This document shows, piece by piece, positions 142 to 13,091 of a DNA stretch of 64,000 bases (positions are counted from its first letter, which is position 1; each line of letters opens with the position of its first letter). The notes beneath the pieces were generated by a model, which did no database searches, had not been told where the DNA came from, and saw nothing but the letters and a program-made list of their open reading frames with translations. Source of the stretch: Spirochaetaceae bacterium (GTDB lineage: Bacteria; Spirochaetota; Spirochaetia; DSM-27196; PWMO01); assembly GCA_007693325.1 (NCBI GenBank), contig REDW01000049.1:1-64000 (forward strand). Reading direction: 5' to 3'. The position numbers and the translations under genes are program-made.

Positions 142-450
142 ATGAGCCAGAAACACTTGACCACCGAGGCGGCGTACGAGCGGCGCAAGTCGGCAATCGG
201 TATCCGAATGACGCTGATTTACTCGCTGATTTACGCCGGTTTTGTTGCCCTCAGTGTGTTCCAACCGGCCTGGATGGGCGTCCGTGCGCTGCTGGGTCTG
301 AATCTCGCGGTGACGTACGGACTGGGACTGATCCTGGTCGCAATCCTTTTTGCCATAGTTTACAACCAGCTCTGCCGTGTTCCAGCCACCGGTTCAACGC
401 CGGAGGCGCAGTCGGGGTCCGGTGCTGATAGCGGGAATCAGGAGGCATAG
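142..450 (+). CDS. Sodium/solute symporter small subunit (DUF485-like)
   Basis: A 102-aa protein with two predicted membrane helices (about residues 24-44 and 57-78), a charged N-terminus and a polar C-terminal tail. This size and topology, directly before an SSS-family transporter, fits the small-subunit family paired with VC_2705-type sodium:solute symporters (compare YjcH-ActP). The start follows a strong AAGGAGG Shine-Dalgarno. The stop codon TAG immediately precedes the ATG of the next gene, so the two are co-translated. The transported solute cannot be read from the sequence; acetate or another short carboxylate is the usual guess for this group. Confidence 0.85.
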   Translation: MSQKHLTTEAAYERRKSAIGIRMTLIYSLIYAGFVALSVFQPAWMGVRALLGLNLAVTYGLGLILVAILFAIVYNQLCRVPATGSTPEAQSGSGADSGNQEA

Positions 451-2553
451 ATGGCGATTGCGGTATTTGTAGTCTTTGTAGCGCTGGTGCTCACGATATC
501 GGCACGCGCTAGCCGTCGTGCGCGCAGCGTAGGCGGCTACTTCGTGGCAAACAGCTCAATCCATTGGGGCGTCAACGGAATCGCGTTTGCGGGCGGCTAT
601 CTTTCGGTTGCCAGTTTTCTGGGCATTGCCGGTTTGATTGCGTTCTTTGGCTATGACGGGTTTCTCTACTCAATCGGCTTCCTGGCCGGCTGGATCGTGG
701 CACTGTTCGTGATCGCCGAACCTATGAAGCGAATGGGAACGTTTACGTTTCCCGACGCTTTGAACCGTAACTTCAGTCACCCCGGCATTCAGCTGGCTGC
801 GGGGCTGAGCGTTCTGGTTGTGTCGCTGTTCTATCTGGTGCCGCAGATGGTTGGCGCCGGCGTTCTGGTAGAGCCCCTGCTGGGAATAACGCATTTCTGG
901 GGCGTGATCATCGTAGGTACGGTGGTAATCATCCTGGTAGCCGGTGGCGGTATGACCTCGACAACCTGGGTCCAGTTCTTCAATGGAGGACTGTTGTTGA
1001 CGTTTGCCACTGTGCTGACGATCGCGGTATTGTTTCGCGGAGTCAGCCCCGACGTACAACTAACCGAGGAGGGAGATCCGGACCTGGTGAGCTACCGCTA
1101 TGAGCACCTGGCGGTGACCATAGAAGGGGCCGAGGCGCGGGTGGATCTTGACGGAGCTCAGACGGTCGGACGTCACGCGATAATCGATCCCAATACCGGT
1201 GCGGAACGTGCGGTCTTCTACCGGCTCTCACGTCCGGTTCCCGCGCTTGCTGATGGACAGGGCGGCTATAGCGCCGAGATAAAAGGGCGCACAGCCCATT
1301 TTGAGACTGCCAACACTGCCCATTGGCAGGTTGAGCAGATCGATGGACAGCCGCACGTTCGCATCGAGGACTGGTGGAGGCTTCTGCGGACTGAAGACGG
1401 CAGTGGGGTCCTGAGGGAGGCTCAGCATCGCGCGGTGCTGCCGGATGGCAGGGTTCTGGTAAACGGCGCCCCGGAGAGCGCCGATAACCGCCTGCGCCAG
1501 ATGGGCGGAGTTTCCCAGCTGCCGTCAGACTACGGCGAGAGCACCGGAGCGGTAGGTCCGTTGCGCCTGCTGAGCGTATTATCCGACCGTTCCACGGTGG
1601 TGGAGCGGCCTATGGCGGTGCGCTTCACCGCCGATGCCGCAGAAGAAGTCACCATCCACTATCAGCAGCCGACAGCCGGCTCAGAGTTTATGCGTCCTGG
1701 GCTGATGTTTCCGCTTGAGGCGCGCGAGGGTGAAGCGCCGATCAGGACATTGCTGAACCGGCTCAACTTCATCTCGCTGATGCTGGCGCTGTTCCTGGGA
1801 ACCTCGGCCCTGCCGCATATTCTGATCCGCTACTACACGGTTCCCAGCGCCGAGGCGGCGCGCAAGTCTACTATAGTAGCGATAGCCGGTATCGGACTGT
1901 TCTACGTGCTTACCATGTACCTTGGCGTAGGAGCGCTAACCGGTGGCGCCATCAATCCCGAGACCAGTAACATGAGTGCGCCGCTGTTGGCGCGCAGCTT
2001 CGGAGAAGTGCTGTTTGCTATGATATCGGGCATTGCTTTCACAACGGTGCTGGCAACCGTCTCAGGGCTGATTATGGCGGCTTCCGGATCGGTTGCGCAC
2101 GATCTGATGGGTAACCTGCTGCGGCGCGAGTTCTCGGACCGGGCCAAGGTACTCACGGGACGCATCGTTGCGGTCGTGGTTGGTGTAGTGGGGATCGTGC
2201 TGGGTATCGCCTTCCGCGACATGAACGTATCGTTTCTGGTGGGATGGGCCTTTGCTGTAGCCGCATCAGCAAACCTGCCGGCGCTGCTGTTGATGCTTTT
2301 CTGGAAGAAAACCACCGCGGTGGGCATCATAGCCTCGATTCTGGTGGGTATTGTGTCATCGGTAGGGTTGATCCTGCTGAGTCCCGACATGTGGGCGCGC
2401 TACGGGCTTGATCCGGCTGCGGCTCCGATGCCGCTCAACCAGCCCGGAATTGTATCGATTCCGCTGAGCTTCCTGGTGCTGATTCTGGTATCGCTGGCCA
2501 CGGCCAAAGGCAATGGAAAGGGAGCCGTTGCGGCCATAGCGTCGAGTGATTGA
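451..2553 (+). CDS. Sodium:solute symporter large subunit (SSS family) with a large soluble insert
   Basis: A 700-aa integral membrane protein of the sodium/solute symporter family, closest in appearance to the VC_2705/ActP-like branch. SSS-type features include GGYLSVASFLG near residue 50, MGTFTFPDAL near 90, SALPHILIRYYTVPSAEAARKS near 450-470 and a run of C-terminal helices. It is longer than typical relatives (550-600 aa) because residues about 195-430 form a hydrophilic, beta-rich-looking insert between two helices. It probably imports a small organic anion with Na+. It starts directly after the stop of the DUF485 gene, with the Shine-Dalgarno CAGGAGG inside that gene's end. The function is confident at family level only; the insert's role is unknown. 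Confidence 0.85.
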   Translation: MAIAVFVVFVALVLTISARASRRARSVGGYFVANSSIHWGVNGIAFAGGYLSVASFLGIAGLIAFFGYDGFLYSIGFLAGWIVALFVIAEPMKRMGTFTFPDALNRNFSHPGIQLAAGLSVLVVSLFYLVPQMVGAGVLVEPLLGITHFWGVIIVGTVVIILVAGGGMTSTTWVQFFNGGLLLTFATVLTIAVLFRGVSPDVQLTEEGDPDLVSYRYEHLAVTIEGAEARVDLDGAQTVGRHAIIDPNTGAERAVFYRLSRPVPALADGQGGYSAEIKGRTAHFETANTAHWQVEQIDGQPHVRIEDWWRLLRTEDGSGVLREAQHRAVLPDGRVLVNGAPESADNRLRQMGGVSQLPSDYGESTGAVGPLRLLSVLSDRSTVVERPMAVRFTADAAEEVTIHYQQPTAGSEFMRPGLMFPLEAREGEAPIRTLLNRLNFISLMLALFLGTSALPHILIRYYTVPSAEAARKSTIVAIAGIGLFYVLTMYLGVGALTGGAINPETSNMSAPLLARSFGEVLFAMISGIAFTTVLATVSGLIMAASGSVAHDLMGNLLRREFSDRAKVLTGRIVAVVVGVVGIVLGIAFRDMNVSFLVGWAFAVAASANLPALLLMLFWKKTTAVGIIASILVGIVSSVGLILLSPDMWARYGLDPAAAPMPLNQPGIVSIPLSFLVLILVSLATAKGNGKGAVAAIASSD

Positions 2554-2604: not shown

Positions 2605-5600
2605 TTAGCCGCTGGTGCGAAACTCATGAGTCACCTTCTTCTGGATCATCGAGATCTGGGAGAAGGTGTTTTTCAGCGTGCCGGTCTCGATCTGGGTCAG
2701 CGAGCGCGGATCGATGGAATTGTCCGGTTCCTGCTCCAGTCTGATCATTTCGACCTGATGGCGATAGCGCAGCTGCATCAACTGTTGGTATGCCTGCGAC
2801 ACCGCGCGGTAGCTGTCCTCCTGCAACACATCGAGAGCGAACAGCTCCTCGAGGCGATCGAATGTGTTGGCTGCCTCCAGCTGGTGTTTGAGCGCGTAGA
2901 GTCGCGCAAAGTTGACAATCGGTAGCATTGCTTCTTTGATATTGAAGGTGTGCGCCGCGTCACCGGAAGACTCGGTTACGATCTTGCCAAACAGTCCTAT
3001 CGGCGGTTTATAGCGCACCGTGTTGAGGGCCAAATACGAGAAGAACGCCGGGCGGGCCGCGAGTGCCTGTGAGACGTGATTCCACAGGTCGCGTACCAGC
3101 GCGCTGTCGCCGTATATGCAGCGCAGGTCAAAAAAAACGTTGCAGTGTGCCAGCGCGGTTTGGTCCGGTTCGGCAATCCACGAGCTGAAGTACTCTTTCC
3201 ACTGCTTAAGCGGCTGGTTCCAGCGGCGGTCTCTGGCCATAGCCTCATTGCCACAGTAGCGGTAGCCGGCGCTGTCCAGGCGGGCGCACACGAGTTCACC
3301 CAGCTTCAAGAAGTACTGCTCGACTTCGGATAGAGGTTGCTCATCGGCCGCAAACAGCAGAGCGTTATCCTGATCGGTGGCCAGTGTCTGTTCCTGGCGG
3401 GCTTCGCTGCCCAGCGCAACAAAGGCGAAACGCGCCGGAGCCGGACCCAGTTCTTCCAGGGTCAAGGCGATAATCCGCTGAGCGATGGAATCCGCAACCG
3501 CACTGGTGACGTGGCAGATATTGCGCGGCAGGGCTCCGGAATCCACCAGCGAGCCAACCAATGCCGGCAGGCGGTCGTGGCAATCCGCCAGCTCTTCTAC
3601 GCTCTTCGCGCGGTGGATCTGCTGTGTCAACACCACCGGTGAGTAGCGGTCAGGCTGCAGCGTTCTGCTGCTACGGATGATGCCCACCAGCGCCTGGCCG
3701 CTGTCGGTTACCGCCAGATGATCGACGTTGCGTTCGCGCTCAAGCAAAAACGCTTCAAAGATGGGCGCGTTTTCGTGGATGGTCACAACCGGTGCGCTCA
3801 TGATGCGGGAGATCGGCTGTGATACGTCGAGACCGGCAACTACCACGCGCTCACGGATATCGTGGTCGGTAACAATCCCCAGCAGGTCGCCGTTGTCTGC
3901 GGTTACCGCTACCGCGTCCGCATTGTTGCGGCTCATCAGGCGCACTGCGGTATTGATCGAGGAGTTCAGACCACAGGTAAGCGGCGGTGACATGGAGCTG
4001 CGGACCGGCTCGGTCAGGAACAGCAGTGAAGTCTGCAGCTGAGATATCAGCTGTTCGCGGGCGGCGCCCGATTGCATTGCCCGATGACGCGTGATGTCCT
4101 GAACGCTGACGATCATGCCTTTCCGCCCGGAGAAATAGACCGCGGTCGAAGAGAGCAGAACCGGAACGGACTGGCCGTTCTTGCGCTGCAGACGCGCCTC
4201 AAACGGCTCGCGAACCTCGCCGCCGGACGCAAGCAATTCCAGACTGGCGGCTGCCGGGCCGTGGTCGTCGGTCAGCACTACGTCGTGGATGTCCAGAAAC
4301 GCAAGCTCGGATGCGGAGTATCCGAGCATCTCCAGCAGCGAGCGGTTGGCGTAGGTGCAACGCCCATCGATTACCAGCATTGTCCCACCGGTGGATGACT
4401 CCACCAGGGACTGGTAGCGCTCGTGCGACAGGCGGAGCTCACGCTCGGCTGCGGTGCGCCGGCGCTCGACTTTCAGGCTCTGGTAGGCAATGCTCAAGAG
4501 CAATACTGTGGCCAGCAGCGTAACCACAAACGAGGCGTCGACCATGCGTCCGGTTATGGCGCGTATCTCCTGCTGGACGTCGTCCTCGTAGAGGCCGGTG
4601 CCGATTATCCAGTTCCAGGGTTCAAAACGGCGTACGTAGGACTCCTTGGCTTCCAGACGTTCAGGATCATCCTGCCACTGCCAGACGTAGCGCACGTATC
4701 CCGACGGGGCGTCTTGTACAGCGGCAACAAACTGCACAAATGGTCTTACACCTTCAGGATCGGTGAAATCGCTCAGATCGGCGCCTTCGAGGTCGCTGCG
4801 ATAGGGGTGCATAACCATGCGCGGGTGCATATCGGTAATCCAGAAATAGTCTTTGCCGTCGGGGCCGTAGCGCATTCGGCGGATGCGCTGGATCGCCGCC
4901 TGCTGTGCTTGTTCCAGCGAGAGTTGCCCATCCTGCACCTCGCGGTGATAGTCCGACAGGATACTCCACGCCGAATTGGTGAGTTCGGTGGTCATTTGGC
5001 GCTTGCGGTCCAGCAGGCGGTCCTCCATGGTCGGAATCAGTACGGCAAACAGGAGCGCGATGAACGCGCCGATGACCAGCAGCGAAGGCAGTACGATGCG
5101 CAGAAACAGCCATTGCCAGTTTATGCTGCCCTGGTGCAGCAGCGGTTGTCTTTCCGCGGTCGGGTGGTCGGTCAGGTCGGCTTGACCGTTCAGAGCGTGT
5201 TCGCCCAGCGCCGCTCGAAACTGTTTCCAGCGAGATACCGGCATCATCACGCCCGGAGTCGCCGGACCGGTCTGCTGTTGTCCGTGGTAATCGCTGCCGG
5301 CAGAGGTGAGAATTCCAACGCGGTCAGCAATTGCGGCCAGCCGCTGCTGAACGTCAGCGGGATAGGGTTTGTAATACGCTTCGATGCCGTCCAGACCGGT
5401 CTGCACCATCTGCGAGATTGCGTTCTCGAGCGCACTCCCGGACCAGCCGGTCTGCAGCGGGTGCGCCAGAAAGACAAGCCCACCGGCCTCGTGTACCGCG
5501 CTGATAACCTGCTCGACATTCAGTGATTCTCTTGCGGTGGGCCCCAGCAGCTGCTGGACAGCATCGTTTGCAGGGTTGAATCCGTAGGCCAACAGGTGGA

Positions 5601-5865
5601 CTTCGGTACCGTTGAAGTTGGCATGCAGCTCCGCTCCGGTAACCTGCGCTATACCGTGGCGCAAAGTGGCACGCCCAAACGACGCGGTTCCGGCAACAGA
5701 GTGGTGGTCGGTCAGCGCGGCGTAATCGACTCCGGCCTCGGCCAGCTTGTCCGCAACAATAGTGGCCGAGAAGTAACCGTCGCTGGAGTCCGAATGACAG
5801 TGCAGGTCCACCAGCACAACCGGCTCAGCGGGCGCTACGACGTTATTGGAATCCGATTCGAGCAT
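2605..5865 (-). CDS. Membrane sensor fusion: PHP phosphoesterase - Cache - PAS - CBS pair - DUF294 nucleotidyltransferase
   Basis: A 1086-aa multidomain protein. Residues 18-225 are a PHP phosphoesterase domain of the TrpH/RNase AM type with apparently complete metal ligands: HCHSD (22-26), LTDHH (51-55), GAELHA (77-82), LAHP (133-136) and GSDYHG (190-195). A membrane helix (about 255-278) and a second (about 443-463) flank a single Cache sensor domain (285-432, including YFWITD and GTGLY). A PAS domain (about 480-592), two CBS motifs (about 615-735) and a DUF294/GlnD-like nucleotidyltransferase region follow, with GSEARQEQTLATDQD (819-833) and the helical DUF294 C-terminal part to about 1080. 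The topology places PHP and PAS-CBS-DUF294 in the cytoplasm and Cache in the periplasm. No Shine-Dalgarno is visible; TATAAT lies 5 nt before the ATG. It follows fusA by 30 bp on the same strand. Confidence 0.85.
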   Translation of the reverse strand: MLESDSNNVVAPAEPVVLVDLHCHSDSSDGYFSATIVADKLAEAGVDYAALTDHHSVAGTASFGRATLRHGIAQVTGAELHANFNGTEVHLLAYGFNPANDAVQQLLGPTARESLNVEQVISAVHEAGGLVFLAHPLQTGWSGSALENAISQMVQTGLDGIEAYYKPYPADVQQRLAAIADRVGILTSAGSDYHGQQQTGPATPGVMMPVSRWKQFRAALGEHALNGQADLTDHPTAERQPLLHQGSINWQWLFLRIVLPSLLVIGAFIALLFAVLIPTMEDRLLDRKRQMTTELTNSAWSILSDYHREVQDGQLSLEQAQQAAIQRIRRMRYGPDGKDYFWITDMHPRMVMHPYRSDLEGADLSDFTDPEGVRPFVQFVAAVQDAPSGYVRYVWQWQDDPERLEAKESYVRRFEPWNWIIGTGLYEDDVQQEIRAITGRMVDASFVVTLLATVLLLSIAYQSLKVERRRTAAERELRLSHERYQSLVESSTGGTMLVIDGRCTYANRSLLEMLGYSASELAFLDIHDVVLTDDHGPAAASLELLASGGEVREPFEARLQRKNGQSVPVLLSSTAVYFSGRKGMIVSVQDITRHRAMQSGAAREQLISQLQTSLLFLTEPVRSSMSPPLTCGLNSSINTAVRLMSRNNADAVAVTADNGDLLGIVTDHDIRERVVVAGLDVSQPISRIMSAPVVTIHENAPIFEAFLLERERNVDHLAVTDSGQALVGIIRSSRTLQPDRYSPVVLTQQIHRAKSVEELADCHDRLPALVGSLVDSGALPRNICHVTSAVADSIAQRIIALTLEELGPAPARFAFVALGSEARQEQTLATDQDNALLFAADEQPLSEVEQYFLKLGELVCARLDSAGYRYCGNEAMARDRRWNQPLKQWKEYFSSWIAEPDQTALAHCNVFFDLRCIYGDSALVRDLWNHVSQALAARPAFFSYLALNTVRYKPPIGLFGKIVTESSGDAAHTFNIKEAMLPIVNFARLYALKHQLEAANTFDRLEELFALDVLQEDSYRAVSQAYQQLMQLRYRHQVEMIRLEQEPDNSIDPRSLTQIETGTLKNTFSQISMIQKKVTHEFRTSG

Positions 5866-5895: not shown

Positions 5896-7929
5896 CTACG
5901 TGTCGCTTTTCCTGGCAAAGTGCGCAAACTCCATCGCGTATGTGCCGCGGCCCTGGGTCATGCTGCGAAGCGAGGTGGAATAGCCGAACATGTTGCGCAA
6001 CGGAATCTCAGCGCGAATATGCTCGCGCATTGCACGCGATTCAACGCCTTGAACCGTTCCGCCGCGCATGCTCAGCGCGTTGATCACATCGCCCATATAC
6101 TCCTTGGGGCTCATGACGTCAACACGCATGATCGGTTCCAGCAACACCGGTTCAGCGTGTTTGCAGGCGTTATCGAAACCCAGCGACGCGGCAGCTTCAA
6201 AGGCAAAAGCCGTGCTGGTAGCAGGGTTGTGCACCGCGTCGAGCAGCGTTACGCCAATATCAATGGTGGGGTAGCCGTAGCTGATGCCTGAGCCAAATGC
6301 ACCTTCAACTCCACGTTCCACCGCTTGCTGACACTCTGCCGGCAGAACCGCCTTGGAAACCTGAGTGGAAAAGCGATTGCCGCTGCCGCGCGGCAGCGAC
6401 TCAACTTTGAGCGTGATCTCGGCGCTGTTCTCCTTACCCGCCAGCATCCGGTGAAACTTCTCGACATGGGTGGCGCTGCCGGCGATCGATTCGCGGTAGG
6501 TGACCTGCGGCGGGCCGACTTTGGCCTGCACGTTGAAGTCCTCAATCATACGGGTCACAAGCACTTCCAGGTGCAGTTCACCCATGCCGGAGATAACCAG
6601 CTCGCCGGTGTCCTCGTCCTCGCGGCTGAAGAACGTCGGGTCCTCTTTGGCCAGGATGGTCAAGACCTCTTTGAGGCGGTCGCGCTGCGACAGGGTCTGA
6701 GGCTCAATTGCAACGCTAATTACGGGTACCGGAAACTGTAGACGTTCCAGCATCACCGGGAAGCCCTCGCTGCCGACTGTATCACCGGTCTGGGCAAGCT
6801 TGAACCCGACCGCTACCGCGATATCGCCGGCTTCGACCGAATCGATCTGCTCGGTGCGGTTGGCGTGCATTCGCAACAAACGGTGAACGCGCTCGCGCTT
6901 CTTCTTGTCGATGTTGTAGACTGCGGTACCGGACTTCAGCGTGCCCGAATACATTCTGATAAACGACAGGTCGCCGGCCTCGCGCTCGCTCTGAATCTTA
7001 AACACAAAGCCTACCGGCTGGCCGTCGGTGGTGCGCTCGATCTCGACGTCAACATCCTTCGTGGCGTGGTGCGCCACAACAGGCGGCAGCTCTTCGGGCG
7101 CCGGCAGGTAGTTGAGGATCGAGTCGAGCAGAGGCTGCACACCGATATTGCGCAGGCTGGCGCCGCACATCACCGGTACCAGGCGGCGCTCTATGGTCTC
7201 CTTGCGAAGGGTGCGGTCCATCAGGTCGGCGGGTATCTCGCTGCCCTCGAGGTAGAGCTCAGTGATTTCATCACAGACCGCGCCAAGTTGGTCGATAAGT
7301 GCCTGTCGCCACGTATCGGCTAGTTCGCGGTACTGCGGCTGTATCTCGGAGGCCTCGAAGTTGGTGCCGTAGTTGTCTACGTCCCAGTGCATCTCGCGCA
7401 GGTTAATCAGATCGATAATGCCGCTGAACTGTGACTCGCTGCCGATCGGCAGATGTGTTACCACCGGCGTTGCGTGCAGTTTCTCGCGGATTTCTTCGAC
7501 GACGGCAAAGAAATCAGCACCGGTACGATCCATCTTGTTGACGTAGGCGATCCGCGGCACCTGGTAGGTGTCGGCCTGATGCCAGACCGTCTCTGACTGC
7601 GGTTCGACACCACCCACGGCGCAGAAGACTGCTACAGCGCCGTCCAGAACGCGTAACGAGCGCTCTACCTCAGCGGTGAAGTCAACGTGGCCGGGAGTGT
7701 CGATGATGTTGATCTGATGGTCCTGCCAGAAGCAGGTGGTGGCAGCCGAGGTGATAGTGATACCGCGGTTCTGCTCCTGTACCATCCAGTCCATGGTTGC
7801 TTCGCCATCATCTACCTCGCCCATGCGGTGGCTCTTTCCGGTGTAGAAGAGAATTCGCTCAGTAGTCGTGGTCTTGCCCGCGTCTATGTGGGCCATGATA
7901 CCGATATTGCGGATCTTGCGTAGTTTCAT
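5896..7929 (-). CDS. fusA: Elongation factor G (EF-G paralogue)
   Basis: A 677-aa translational GTPase that would drive ribosome translocation or recycling. G1 is AHIDAGKT near the N-terminus, followed by the switch region ([10 protein letters not shown]), G3 DTPGH, G4 NKMD and CGAS as G5, then domains II-V ending in [13 protein letters not shown]. It is shorter than the usual 690-700 aa, so it may be one of the duplicated EF-Gs known in spirochaetes rather than the main copy. I chose the ATG at 7929 because it has GGAG at the right spacing and the EF-G homology starts there; a longer frame opening at 7977 would run through the promoter (7949-7977). Translation apparatus genes are not adjacent. 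Confidence 0.9.
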
Positions 7930-7948
7930 CGATGCTCCGTGGGCACAG

Positions 7949-7977
7949 ATAGTAGCAAAATCGCGGCGCTTGATCAA
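7949..7977 (-). promoter_or_regulatory. Sigma-70 promoter of fusA
   Basis: On the minus strand TTGATC (7972-7977), an exact 17-bp spacer and TACTAT (7949-7954). The predicted start near 7942 leaves a 13-nt leader containing GGAG. This supports the 7929 start of EF-G. Confidence 0.65.
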
Positions 7978-10366: not shown

Positions 10367-11619
10367 TGGATGCTTACCTCCAGCACGGTATTGGCGGATA
10401 GTTGCCATTTCTCGAGGTCTCGTTGGGTGAGCGTTACGCTGACCATCTCCGACGGTTGCACGTGCGGCAGCTTCTTCTGCTTGACAGTCAGATTATCGAG
10501 CTTCATCGTCAGTTGGGCATTATTCTTGACGATCAGCGCGCGCAGGTAGAGTTTGTCCGGCTGTTCGGGGTTCATTTTCGGCGGGCTGACGTAACGGACG
10601 TTGGCACCGGCTCTGATGGCAACCTGCTGCCGTGGTGGTCTGTTCTGCAACCACGCGGCGGCGTAGGCTCCCGTGCGCCTGGCCTCTTCGGCGGCGTAGT
10701 CTGCAAGATCGTGAACGTGCAGCACATTGCCGCACGAGAAGATCCCGGCTACGGATGTCATCATAGTCGAGTCGACCAGTGCCCCGTTGGTCTGAGCTGA
10801 GAGTTCAATCCCGGCCGCCTGCGCCAGTTCATTCTCCGGCACCAGTCCCACCGACAGCAACAGCGTGTCACACGCGATATGAAACGTGCTGTCGTGATCC
10901 GGGATACCGTCTTTCAGCGGGGTTATCTCCACCATTTCTAGCCGATCTTTGCCCAGGATCCGCGACACCACGTGGGACAGGTAGAGCGGGATATCGAAGT
11001 CATTGAGACACTGAACGATATTGCGCGTCAGACCTGAGGGGTAGGGCTGGATCTCGACCACCGCATGAACCCTGGCTCCCACCCAGGTCATGCGGCGCGC
11101 CATGATCAAACCGATATCACCGGAACCCACAATTACCACGTCTTTGCCGGGAATATAGCCCTCAACGTTGACCAGGCGCTGTGCCAGACCGGCGGTATAG
11201 ACGCCGGCAGGACGCGTACCCGGGGTGTGTATGTTGCCACGGTTGCGCTCGCGACAGCCCATCGCCAGGATGACGGCGCGCACAGTGAGTCTTGTGATTC
11301 CATGGTGCTGCGAATAGCAATAGAGCTGCTTGCCGTTTTCTGAGTCTTCGATACTGGCAACAGTGGTATCGAGGAGGACCTCCACGCCGCAATGGCGTAC
11401 TTGCTCGATGAACTCCTCGGCAAATTCGGGTCCGGTAAGCTCCTGTTTGAACTCCTGCAGGCCAAATCCGTTGTGGATGCACTGCATCAGGATTCCGCCG
11501 AGCTGGTTCTCGCGTTCCAGTATGACGCAAGAGTACCCGTGGCGGCGGACCTCCACCGCAGCAGCCATACCCGCAGCGCCGCCGCCGATCACGGCGATGT
11601 CGTACTGTTTCTCCTGCAT
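10363..11619 (-). CDS. NAD(P)/FAD-dependent oxidoreductase, partner of GlpA-like dehydrogenase
   Basis: A 418-aa two-dinucleotide-binding flavoprotein. It has an N-terminal FAD site (IGGGAAGMAAAVEV), a second Rossmann motif (VVIVGSGDIGLIMA) and a C-terminal FAD-binding element (GIFSCGNVLHVHDLADYAAEE). The gene order GlpA-like / this protein / DUF1667 recurs in anaerobes, where the trio is thought to oxidise glycerol-3-phosphate or a similar alcohol and pass electrons on. The ATG has GGAGAG upstream and the gene starts 11 bp after the GlpA-like stop. Its own electron acceptor is not evident. Confidence 0.85.
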   Translation of the reverse strand: MQEKQYDIAVIGGGAAGMAAAVEVRRHGYSCVILERENQLGGILMQCIHNGFGLQEFKQELTGPEFAEEFIEQVRHCGVEVLLDTTVASIEDSENGKQLYCYSQHHGITRLTVRAVILAMGCRERNRGNIHTPGTRPAGVYTAGLAQRLVNVEGYIPGKDVVIVGSGDIGLIMARRMTWVGARVHAVVEIQPYPSGLTRNIVQCLNDFDIPLYLSHVVSRILGKDRLEMVEITPLKDGIPDHDSTFHIACDTLLLSVGLVPENELAQAAGIELSAQTNGALVDSTMMTSVAGIFSCGNVLHVHDLADYAAEEARRTGAYAAAWLQNRPPRQQVAIRAGANVRYVSPPKMNPEQPDKLYLRALIVKNNAQLTMKLDNLTVKQKKLPHVQPSEMVSVTLTQRDLEKWQLSANTVLEVSIQ

Positions 11620-11630
11620 GATTGTCTCTC

Positions 11631-13091
11631 CTACAGTCTACCGCTGAGCACCACGCTGCCGCGGCCGCGTTTGGTGATCTGATCGTAGTCCATTCCAGTT
11701 TCACGCATGATCAGTTTGATGATCCTGTAGGTGCAGAACCCGCCCTGACAGCGGCCCATCTGGGCGCGCGTGTAGTACTTTATGCCGTCGAGCGTAGTGT
11801 GTCCGCGTCGAATCGCTTCAACTACTTCAGCTTCGGAAATGGTCTCACAACGGCAGACCAGATTGCCGTACGCCGGATTGCTCTGCAGCAGTTCGTCTGC
11901 CTCAAAGGGCCTAAAATCGCGGATTCTTGGCACCTTGGTCACAGAAGGATCGTAATCTGATTTCTCGGTCAGGCGGCAACCGGCCTTTTTGAGCAGATCC
12001 TTGACGTATTCGCCAATTGCCGGTGCTGCAGTGAGCCCCGGTGACTGGATGCCGGCAACCTGGATCAGGTTTGGGGCCTGCTGCGAAATATCGATGTAGA
12101 AGTCCGCGTCCTGTAGCGCAGGACGCAGGCCTGAGAAGGCGGCGATAACGTCAGTCTGCGATACAACGGGTATCATCTTGCGCGCCTGATCGAAGATCTG
12201 GTTGAGTTGTTCGGCGTTTGTAGATAGATCGCTCTTATCCTGGATTTCCTGGGCGGTAGGTCCAATCAAGACGGTTCCTTCGGCGGTAGGTATGACCAGC
12301 ATGCCCTTGGAAATCCGGGTGGGAACCGGGAAAAGCACCCGTTGCGGTGCTGCCTTGGTCATGCGGTCCAAGAGGTAGTACTCGCCTTTGCGCGGCGAGA
12401 TTGTAAACTCTTCGGCCCGGAACAGCCGTGAGACTTCATCGGCGTGCAGGCCCGCGGCATTGACAACGTAGTCGGCCTGCACAACGCGTCCGTCCTGAGC
12501 GTGAATGACGTGTCTGTCATTGCGACGCTCTGCGGCTACAACATTGAAGTCGGTCATCAGTTGCACGCCGTTCTTGCACGCCGATTCAACCACCGAGAAC
12601 ACAAAGCGGTACGGCTCAATAACACCGCCGCCGGGTGCGTGCAGGCCACCGACGCAGTCGCTGTTGAGCTTGGGTTCCAGTTCAAACATGCGTTCTCGCG
12701 AACACATCTCGATGCCGATGGCGCCGTTTGCGACACCCTGCGTGTAGAGGTGATCGATGTACTTCATCTCCTCGTCGCTGAGCGCAACAACCAGGATACC
12801 ACAGCGCAGAAATGGAAAGTCGAGTTCGCGCTGCAACCGATCGAACATCTGGTTGCCGCGGATCTCCAGACGCGTCTTGAGGTATCTTGGGCTATGATGG
12901 AAACCGCCGTGAATAATTCCTGAGTTGGCCTTGGACACTCCAAAGGAGACATCGGCCTCGCGGTCCAGCAGTACAATATCGGTTTCATAGGCCGATAGCT
13001 GCATGGAGATGCACGCGCCGCTGACCCCGGCGCCGATAACCGCAATGGTCGGGCGCGCGCGCGACTGCGTTGTTGTGGCGTTGTCAGACAT
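11631..13091 (-). CDS. GlpA-like FAD dehydrogenase with C-terminal BFD-type [2Fe-2S] domain
   Basis: A 486-aa flavoprotein of the DAO/GlpA class. The N-terminal FAD motif is VIGAGVSGACIS, followed by a substrate-binding fold (SGIIHGGFHH). The C-terminal BFD-like domain carries CRCETIS and CQGGFC cysteines for a [2Fe-2S] cluster, as in anaerobic glycerol-3-phosphate dehydrogenase. I chose the ATG at 13091 because GAGG lies 8 nt upstream and homology begins there; the frame stays open to 13142 but through the promoter. It is the first gene of a four-gene operon. No glycerol kinase or transporter is nearby, so the substrate could differ from glycerol-3-phosphate. Confidence 0.87.
   Translation of the reverse strand: MSDNATTTQSRARPTIAVIGAGVSGACISMQLSAYETDIVLLDREADVSFGVSKANSGIIHGGFHHSPRYLKTRLEIRGNQMFDRLQRELDFPFLRCGILVVALSDEEMKYIDHLYTQGVANGAIGIEMCSRERMFELEPKLNSDCVGGLHAPGGGVIEPYRFVFSVVESACKNGVQLMTDFNVVAAERRNDRHVIHAQDGRVVQADYVVNAAGLHADEVSRLFRAEEFTISPRKGEYYLLDRMTKAAPQRVLFPVPTRISKGMLVIPTAEGTVLIGPTAQEIQDKSDLSTNAEQLNQIFDQARKMIPVVSQTDVIAAFSGLRPALQDADFYIDISQQAPNLIQVAGIQSPGLTAAPAIGEYVKDLLKKAGCRLTEKSDYDPSVTKVPRIRDFRPFEADELLQSNPAYGNLVCRCETISEAEVVEAIRRGHTTLDGIKYYTRAQMGRCQGGFCTYRIIKLIMRETGMDYDQITKRGRGSVVLSGRL

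Follow-up and report, generated by a model that had tools for sequence, protein, structure and literature searches.

The gene at 2605..5865 on the minus strand of the window, the 64,000-nucleotide stretch of contig REDW01000049.1 (Spirochaetaceae bacterium) that was analysed here, encodes a sensor protein whose PHP-Cache architecture adds a new form to the symporter-linked DUF294 regulators. The argument draws on its domains, its intact catalytic and ligand residues, the linkage to a symporter gene, the pairing of DUF294 with a single hydrolase and the fold match of the DUF294 part. From these features we infer both enzyme activities, the target and the direction of control, and tentatively propose a carboxylate receptor with a DUF294 writer and a PHP eraser, whose target is most likely the adjacent Na+/carboxylate symporter or the DUF485 subunit of this transporter.

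According to this proposal, the Cache domain would sense a C2/C3 monocarboxylate such as acetate, propionate or pyruvate in the periplasm, and the PAS and CBS domains would relay the signal into the cytoplasm, where the chain carries two enzymes of opposite action. DUF294 would act as a GlnE/GlnD-like protein nucleotidylyltransferase and PHP as a metal-dependent phosphodiesterase that removes a nucleotide or short oligonucleotide, filling the place held by a DnaQ-type 3'-5' exonuclease beside ordinary cNMP-CBS-DUF294 proteins. Carboxylate binding outside would shift the balance between addition by DUF294 and removal by PHP on the cytoplasmic target; if that target is the symporter or the DUF485 subunit, uptake would follow both outside supply and inside energy state.

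Domain organization and distribution of the sensor gene

The open reading frame is a single, uninterrupted frame of 1086 aa with the order PHP-TM-sCache_2-TM-PAS-CBSx2-DUF294-DUF294_C. All domains scored above the Pfam cut-offs: PHP (aa 20-85, 2.8e-7; with NCBIfam and alignment the domain extends over aa 15-235, 5161..5823), sCache_2 (aa 286-437, 4555..5010; 2.3e-38, 132 bits versus a cut-off of 25), PAS (aa 482-591, 4093..4422; 1e-12), the CBS pair (aa 625-731, 3673..3993; 4.5e-19), DUF294 (aa 765-902, 3160..3573; 1.3e-40) and DUF294_C (aa 939-1082, 2620..3051; 4.6e-39), the last being a helical substrate-binding domain according to Pfam, the structure model and the fold search. Hydropathy placed transmembrane helices at about aa 250-282 (5020..5118) and aa 439-466 (4468..4551), all coordinates being on the minus strand. 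Since these two helices flank the Cache domain, it should be periplasmic, and PHP, PAS, CBS and DUF294 should be cytoplasmic. The preliminary description had recognized this five-domain fusion, with the same domains in the same order and a periplasmic Cache sensor, and on these points the Pfam matches and the flanking helices bear it out; the ligand class, the symporter, the wide occurrence and the DUF294-hydrolase pairing had escaped it.

That description had also considered a frame error at the join and the presence of the architecture in other genomes. The same fused, stop-free frame recurs in many genomes, through much of the focal order (some members with a second PAS domain) and in other phyla, which rules out a frame error or chance join. 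Altogether, the architecture was found at 38 non-redundant loci from several phyla, giving 38 fused rows in the tree; outside the order, fused records carried the names Chloroflexota, Latescibacterota, Armatimonadota (Zipacnadia), Aminicenantes, Victivallis and Clostridia. The three functional residue sets of PHP, Cache and transferase were identical in every covering sequence, at identities as low as about 35%. The CBS pair is absent from several members (L057/L089, L093, L095, L102), and the core thus consists of PHP, Cache, PAS and DUF294. At L072, L073, L083 and L087 the gene and its symporter are close to the spirochaete copies (50-59% identity); these bins are named Chloroflexota and Latescibacterota and come from similarly named sediment samples, so the close copies may reflect lateral transfer or a binning error.

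The sensor gene is the one DUF294 gene of this Spirochaetota genome, whose closest named relatives are metagenome genomes of Spirochaetales/Spirochaetaceae; a gammaproteobacterial origin was rejected. PADLOC gave no match to a defence system, and PHROG matches to phage genes were weak only and confined to the PHP, CBS and PAS parts. On the minus strand, the sensor gene is closely preceded by a gene for elongation factor G (5896-7977), and a second EF-G homologue was seen close to the corresponding sensor locus at L039.

Ligand pocket of the Cache domain

Sequence alignment with PscD, using the residue numbering of PMC5062169, matched Y340, W342, H353, F376, Y393, W395 and K407 of the sensor to Y90, W92, H103, F126, Y143, W145 and K156 of PscD, which are all the propionate contacts of that protein (PMC5062169). 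Because all seven were invariant in every sequence covering them, a C2/C3 carboxylate is strongly predicted as the ligand. PscD, McpP and related sCache_2 C2/C3-carboxylate sensors share the complete set with the protein studied here; the output of PscD/McpP-type sensors, however, is a chemotaxis signalling domain, whereas here it is PHP and DUF294.

Metal ligands and family position of the PHP domain

All nine predicted PHP metal ligands (H22, H24, D29, H54, E79, H90, H135, D192 and H194) are present, and they were invariant across phyla at 35-40% identity in all sequences covering them. The full ligand set read from the sequence in the preliminary description was thus confirmed, and the alignment left no ligand missing. 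The nearest families are RNase AM/TrpH and 3',5'-nucleoside bisphosphate phosphatase, with which the domain shares the PHP core and the nine ligands. The scores against NCBIfam nucleoside bisphosphatase (1.3e-27, 96.7 bits) and RNase RNM (9.3e-23, 80.9 bits) were nevertheless far under the respective cut-offs of 400 and 375. Moreover, the NCBIfam match falls into two pieces that adjoin at about aa 107-116, the insertion subdomain being absent, and the domain differs from the RNase AM/TrpH group also in its fusion to a membrane receptor. The earlier label 'TrpH/RNase AM-type' therefore holds for the nearest group and the ligands but not for these family-specific features. Hydrolysis of RNA, also suggested earlier, is possible, but removal of a group added by DUF294 is better supported. 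The genome contains separate stand-alone PHP genes, one of which (291 aa) retains the spacing of the RNase AM group; thus, the PHP domain of the sensor is not the housekeeping copy.

Resemblance of DUF294 to protein adenylyltransferases

The transferase residues G819, S820, R823, D831 and D833 were invariant in every covering sequence. The structure model of the DUF294 part, for which the alignment comprised genome loci only, reached a pLDDT of 94. At E<=0.001 it matched four PDB chains only, namely DrrA and three chains of GlnE, one for its N-terminal and two for its C-terminal half. All four are domains for protein adenylyl transfer or removal, and aminoglycoside transferases followed far behind; a sequence search of DUF294 against solved structures had given no meaningful direct match. 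Since the model matches DrrA and both GlnE halves, a protein is the likeliest substrate. The GlnD-like transferase of the preliminary description, thought to act on a partner protein, accordingly stands as a predicted GlnD/GlnE-like enzyme on the basis of domains and fold search. No demonstrated activity of any DUF294 protein was found in the literature searched, including PMC5715377.

Glutamine synthetase adenylyltransferase GlnE resembles DUF294 in its transferase fold and helical C-terminal domain (TM about 0.65). Both GlnE and the PII uridylyltransferase GlnD, with its HD domain, carry writer and eraser on one chain, as would the sensor. Identity to these enzymes is nonetheless low (12-14%), the sensor has a membrane receptor part, and PHP would do the erasing that an HD domain or a second transferase half performs in the known enzymes; Pfam detected neither the HD nor the ACT domain of GlnD in the sensor. 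Two further systems offer analogies to the writer-eraser idea. In MntA/HepT, the GSX10DXD transferase MntA modifies a tyrosine with three AMP linked 3'-5' (PMC7641770); the chemistry would be like that of DUF294 and the AMP tail is of the kind that a 3'-5' nuclease could remove, but this is a toxin-antitoxin pair without sensor domains. In PolX, a Pol-beta transferase is combined with a PHP exonuclease/3'-phosphodiesterase (PMC6616362, PMC10721889). The sensor likewise joins a Pol-beta-superfamily transferase to PHP, yet no polymerase-specific domains were found in it, it has a receptor architecture, and its DUF294 fold lies closer to that of protein adenylyltransferases.

The PolX precedent also lends itself to another explanation, in which DUF294 adds a tail to RNA or some other nucleic acid, to be trimmed by PHP or the exonuclease in the manner of a polymerase and its proofreader, giving RNA-level control near the membrane. 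DEDDh, PHP and Mre11-like calcineurin folds also serve polymerases as 3'-5' exonucleases, and the families closest to the PHP domain are RNase AM and nucleotide phosphatases. Against this, the DUF294 fold matched protein adenylyltransferases and not RNA tailing enzymes, Pfam found no RNA-binding domain in the sensor, and the PHP domain is without the RNase AM insertion subdomain. We consider RNA tailing unlikely.

Pairing of DUF294 with a single hydrolase

DUF294 loci were sampled across the phyla Spirochaetota, Chloroflexota and Verrucomicrobiota, and their flanks were inspected. Among the 93 loci flanked by 1 kb or more of sequence in both directions, 88 had exactly one kind of partner: a DEDDh (DnaQ-type 3'-5') exonuclease in 48 and another partner in 40, with both in none and neither, among the families tested, in 5, in a sample where PHP loci were partly found through a PHP search and partner families other than exonuclease and PHP were named after being seen. 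The partner type follows the tree closely, separating a cNMP/exonuclease clade from a Cache clade with 11 label changes in a quick tree, so that the Fisher p of 4e-21 overstates independence and is not a count of independent events. The catalytic D, E, H and D of the exonuclease were invariant in 48/48. RNase_T exonucleases are rare in genomes (27 hits in nine genomes, about 41 Mb), and their adjacency to DUF294 is therefore not due to chance; beside plasmid cNMP-CBS-DUF294 genes, too, a 3'-5' exonuclease was nearly always adjacent and often overlapping. In the alphaproteobacterial plasmid loci L159 (7880-9832), L161 (7376-9316) and L162 (7527-9308), the exonuclease makes up the C-terminal region of a longer protein with a membrane part, whose gene is preceded by a response regulator gene in L159 and L161.

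The 40 other partners comprise a fused PHP domain, a fused EndoIV-like barrel (AP_endonuc_2, L178), a neighbouring metallophosphoesterase and the candidate hydrolase DUF6915, of which PHP, the EndoIV-like barrel and DUF6915 can each occupy the N-terminal slot. A calcineurin-type metallophosphoesterase lies next door to Cache-DUF294 genes without an N-terminal domain in L173, L207 and L220. DUF6915 is fused to the DUF294 gene in L061, L062, L063, L209 and L215, and neighbours or overlaps it in L059 (5936-6280) and L060 (9006-9353). It has many invariant H, D and E residues and is a candidate for an unrecognized metal-dependent hydrolase; its model was of moderate confidence and the PDB fold search gave no match, so the hydrolase role remains a guess. 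At L169, an ARMT1-like damage-control phosphatase (11361-12293) lies directly upstream of a Cache-DUF294 gene without other partner and was excluded from the partner count. A by-eye impression that 12292-12708 of the same locus encodes an exonuclease was dismissed, as it had no Pfam match.

The alternation of partners also bears on whether PHP is simply a passenger on an ordinary symporter-linked DUF294 sensor, the two enzymes working on different substrates and their link being accidental. Cache-PAS-CBS-DUF294 proteins without PHP do exist (L169, L173). However, PHP, the EndoIV-like barrel, metallophosphoesterase and DUF6915 alternate and never occur together with the exonuclease, the PHP ligands are kept across phyla at the low identity given above, and at L094, where PHP-Cache-PAS and Cache-PAS-DUF294 are encoded by separate genes flanking the symporter, both parts are still together. 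An accidental link is quite unlikely on these grounds.

Alternatively, DUF294 could be mainly a scaffold or nucleotide sensor, the output being the action of PHP on a signal molecule (e.g. pAp, a cyclic nucleotide or an oligonucleotide) switched by ligand and energy state. The PHP relatives hydrolyse 3',5'-nucleoside bisphosphates, judging from the family name, and six exonuclease-paired DUF294 proteins of Verrucomicrobiota (L221-L226) have lost the DxD motif while the exonuclease catalytic residues are intact. The latter are possible pseudo-transferase regulators and indicate, against the writer-eraser proposal, that in some lineages the hydrolase works in the absence of a writer. On the other hand, GS..R..DxD was intact in every Cache-type protein with sequence across the motif, and DUF294 stays constant while hydrolase folds of differing substrate preference are swapped. 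We regard this alternative as unlikely.

Returning to the writer-eraser proposal, a wider reading is possible though doubtful: DUF294 could be one half of a widespread, unrecognized system of reversible protein (oligo)nucleotidylation, frequently with sodium/carboxylate uptake under its control. Unrelated hydrolases would have replaced one another as the half that removes the group (DnaQ-type exonuclease, PHP, EndoIV-like barrel, calcineurin-like phosphoesterase and perhaps DUF6915 and an ARMT1-like protein), and in the spirochaete writer, eraser and sensor would form one chain. DUF294 is widespread and unexplained, and the one-hydrolase rule with its interchangeable folds leads to a testable writer-eraser idea in which C2/C3 carboxylates are the named signal and the adjacent symporter is the candidate target. 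If true, it would reveal a new mode of carboxylate-uptake control and predict hydrolase activity for DUF6915. The open papers searched contained no text joining PHP, CBS and nucleotidyltransferase, or DUF294 and exonuclease, which does not prove absence; as far as this literature shows, it has not been described before that DUF294 pairs with a single, exchangeable hydrolase.

Linkage to a carboxylate-type symporter

On the plus strand, the window encodes a small DUF485/DUF4212-type membrane subunit of a symporter (142..450; Pfam DUF485, 6.5e-10), found also beside relatives, and a Na+:solute symporter (SSF; 451..2553) whose family match is nearest to monocarboxylate symporters of the MctC/ActP/VC_2705 type. 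The symporter and sensor genes are convergent, their stop codons being separated by 51 bp. The DUF485-SSF pair adjoins the sensor gene in nearly all relatives with a sufficiently long contig. The orientation, convergent in the focal order, is tandem or divergent elsewhere, and this variation between phyla implies that the symporter link was retained through rearrangement.

The CBS pair, DUF294, DUF294_C and the adjacent DUF485/DUF4212-SSF symporter are features that the sensor shares with other symporter-linked DUF294 systems. The common form of these, exemplified by Pflu5625 of P. fluorescens and a P. aeruginosa locus on plasmid pHPA0698-2, combines a cNMP-CBS-DUF294 protein with a DnaQ-type exonuclease and DUF485/ActP. 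Both forms thus have a partner nuclease and often the same symporter with its small subunit. The cNMP-CBS-DUF294 proteins, however, are soluble and have a cyclic-nucleotide-binding domain where the sensor has PHP-Cache-PAS, and their nuclease is encoded by a separate DEDDh gene whereas PHP is fused. Neither a cNMP-binding domain nor an adjacent DEDDh exonuclease was present in the window. The acetate system CrbS/R controls Pflu5625, a DUF294-type protein, together with actP, and deletion of Pflu5625 gave no clear phenotype (PMC5715377). The joint control of Pflu5625 and actP by CrbS/R fits the carboxylate-uptake proposal, whereas the deletion result speaks against it.

A carboxylate-type symporter lay within 3.5 kb of 36/40 Cache-type DUF294 genes. 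For DUF294 genes without Cache this was so in only 19 of 53, whereas 48 of the 53 had the exonuclease, meaning that the constant partner is the hydrolase and not the symporter. Such numbers would agree with a writer and eraser as proposed that act on another target, e.g. a regulator of transcription or metabolism, the symporter being only co-regulated; given that the symporter is nearly always there in the Cache branch, we regard a different target as improbable. The symporter or its DUF485 subunit is the preferred target, but inspection of both sequences for an obvious modification site gave nothing decisive. Two membrane helices of the symporter are separated by a long hydrophilic stretch (residues 200-440, about 240 residues; window 1050-1770), which interrupts the family match.
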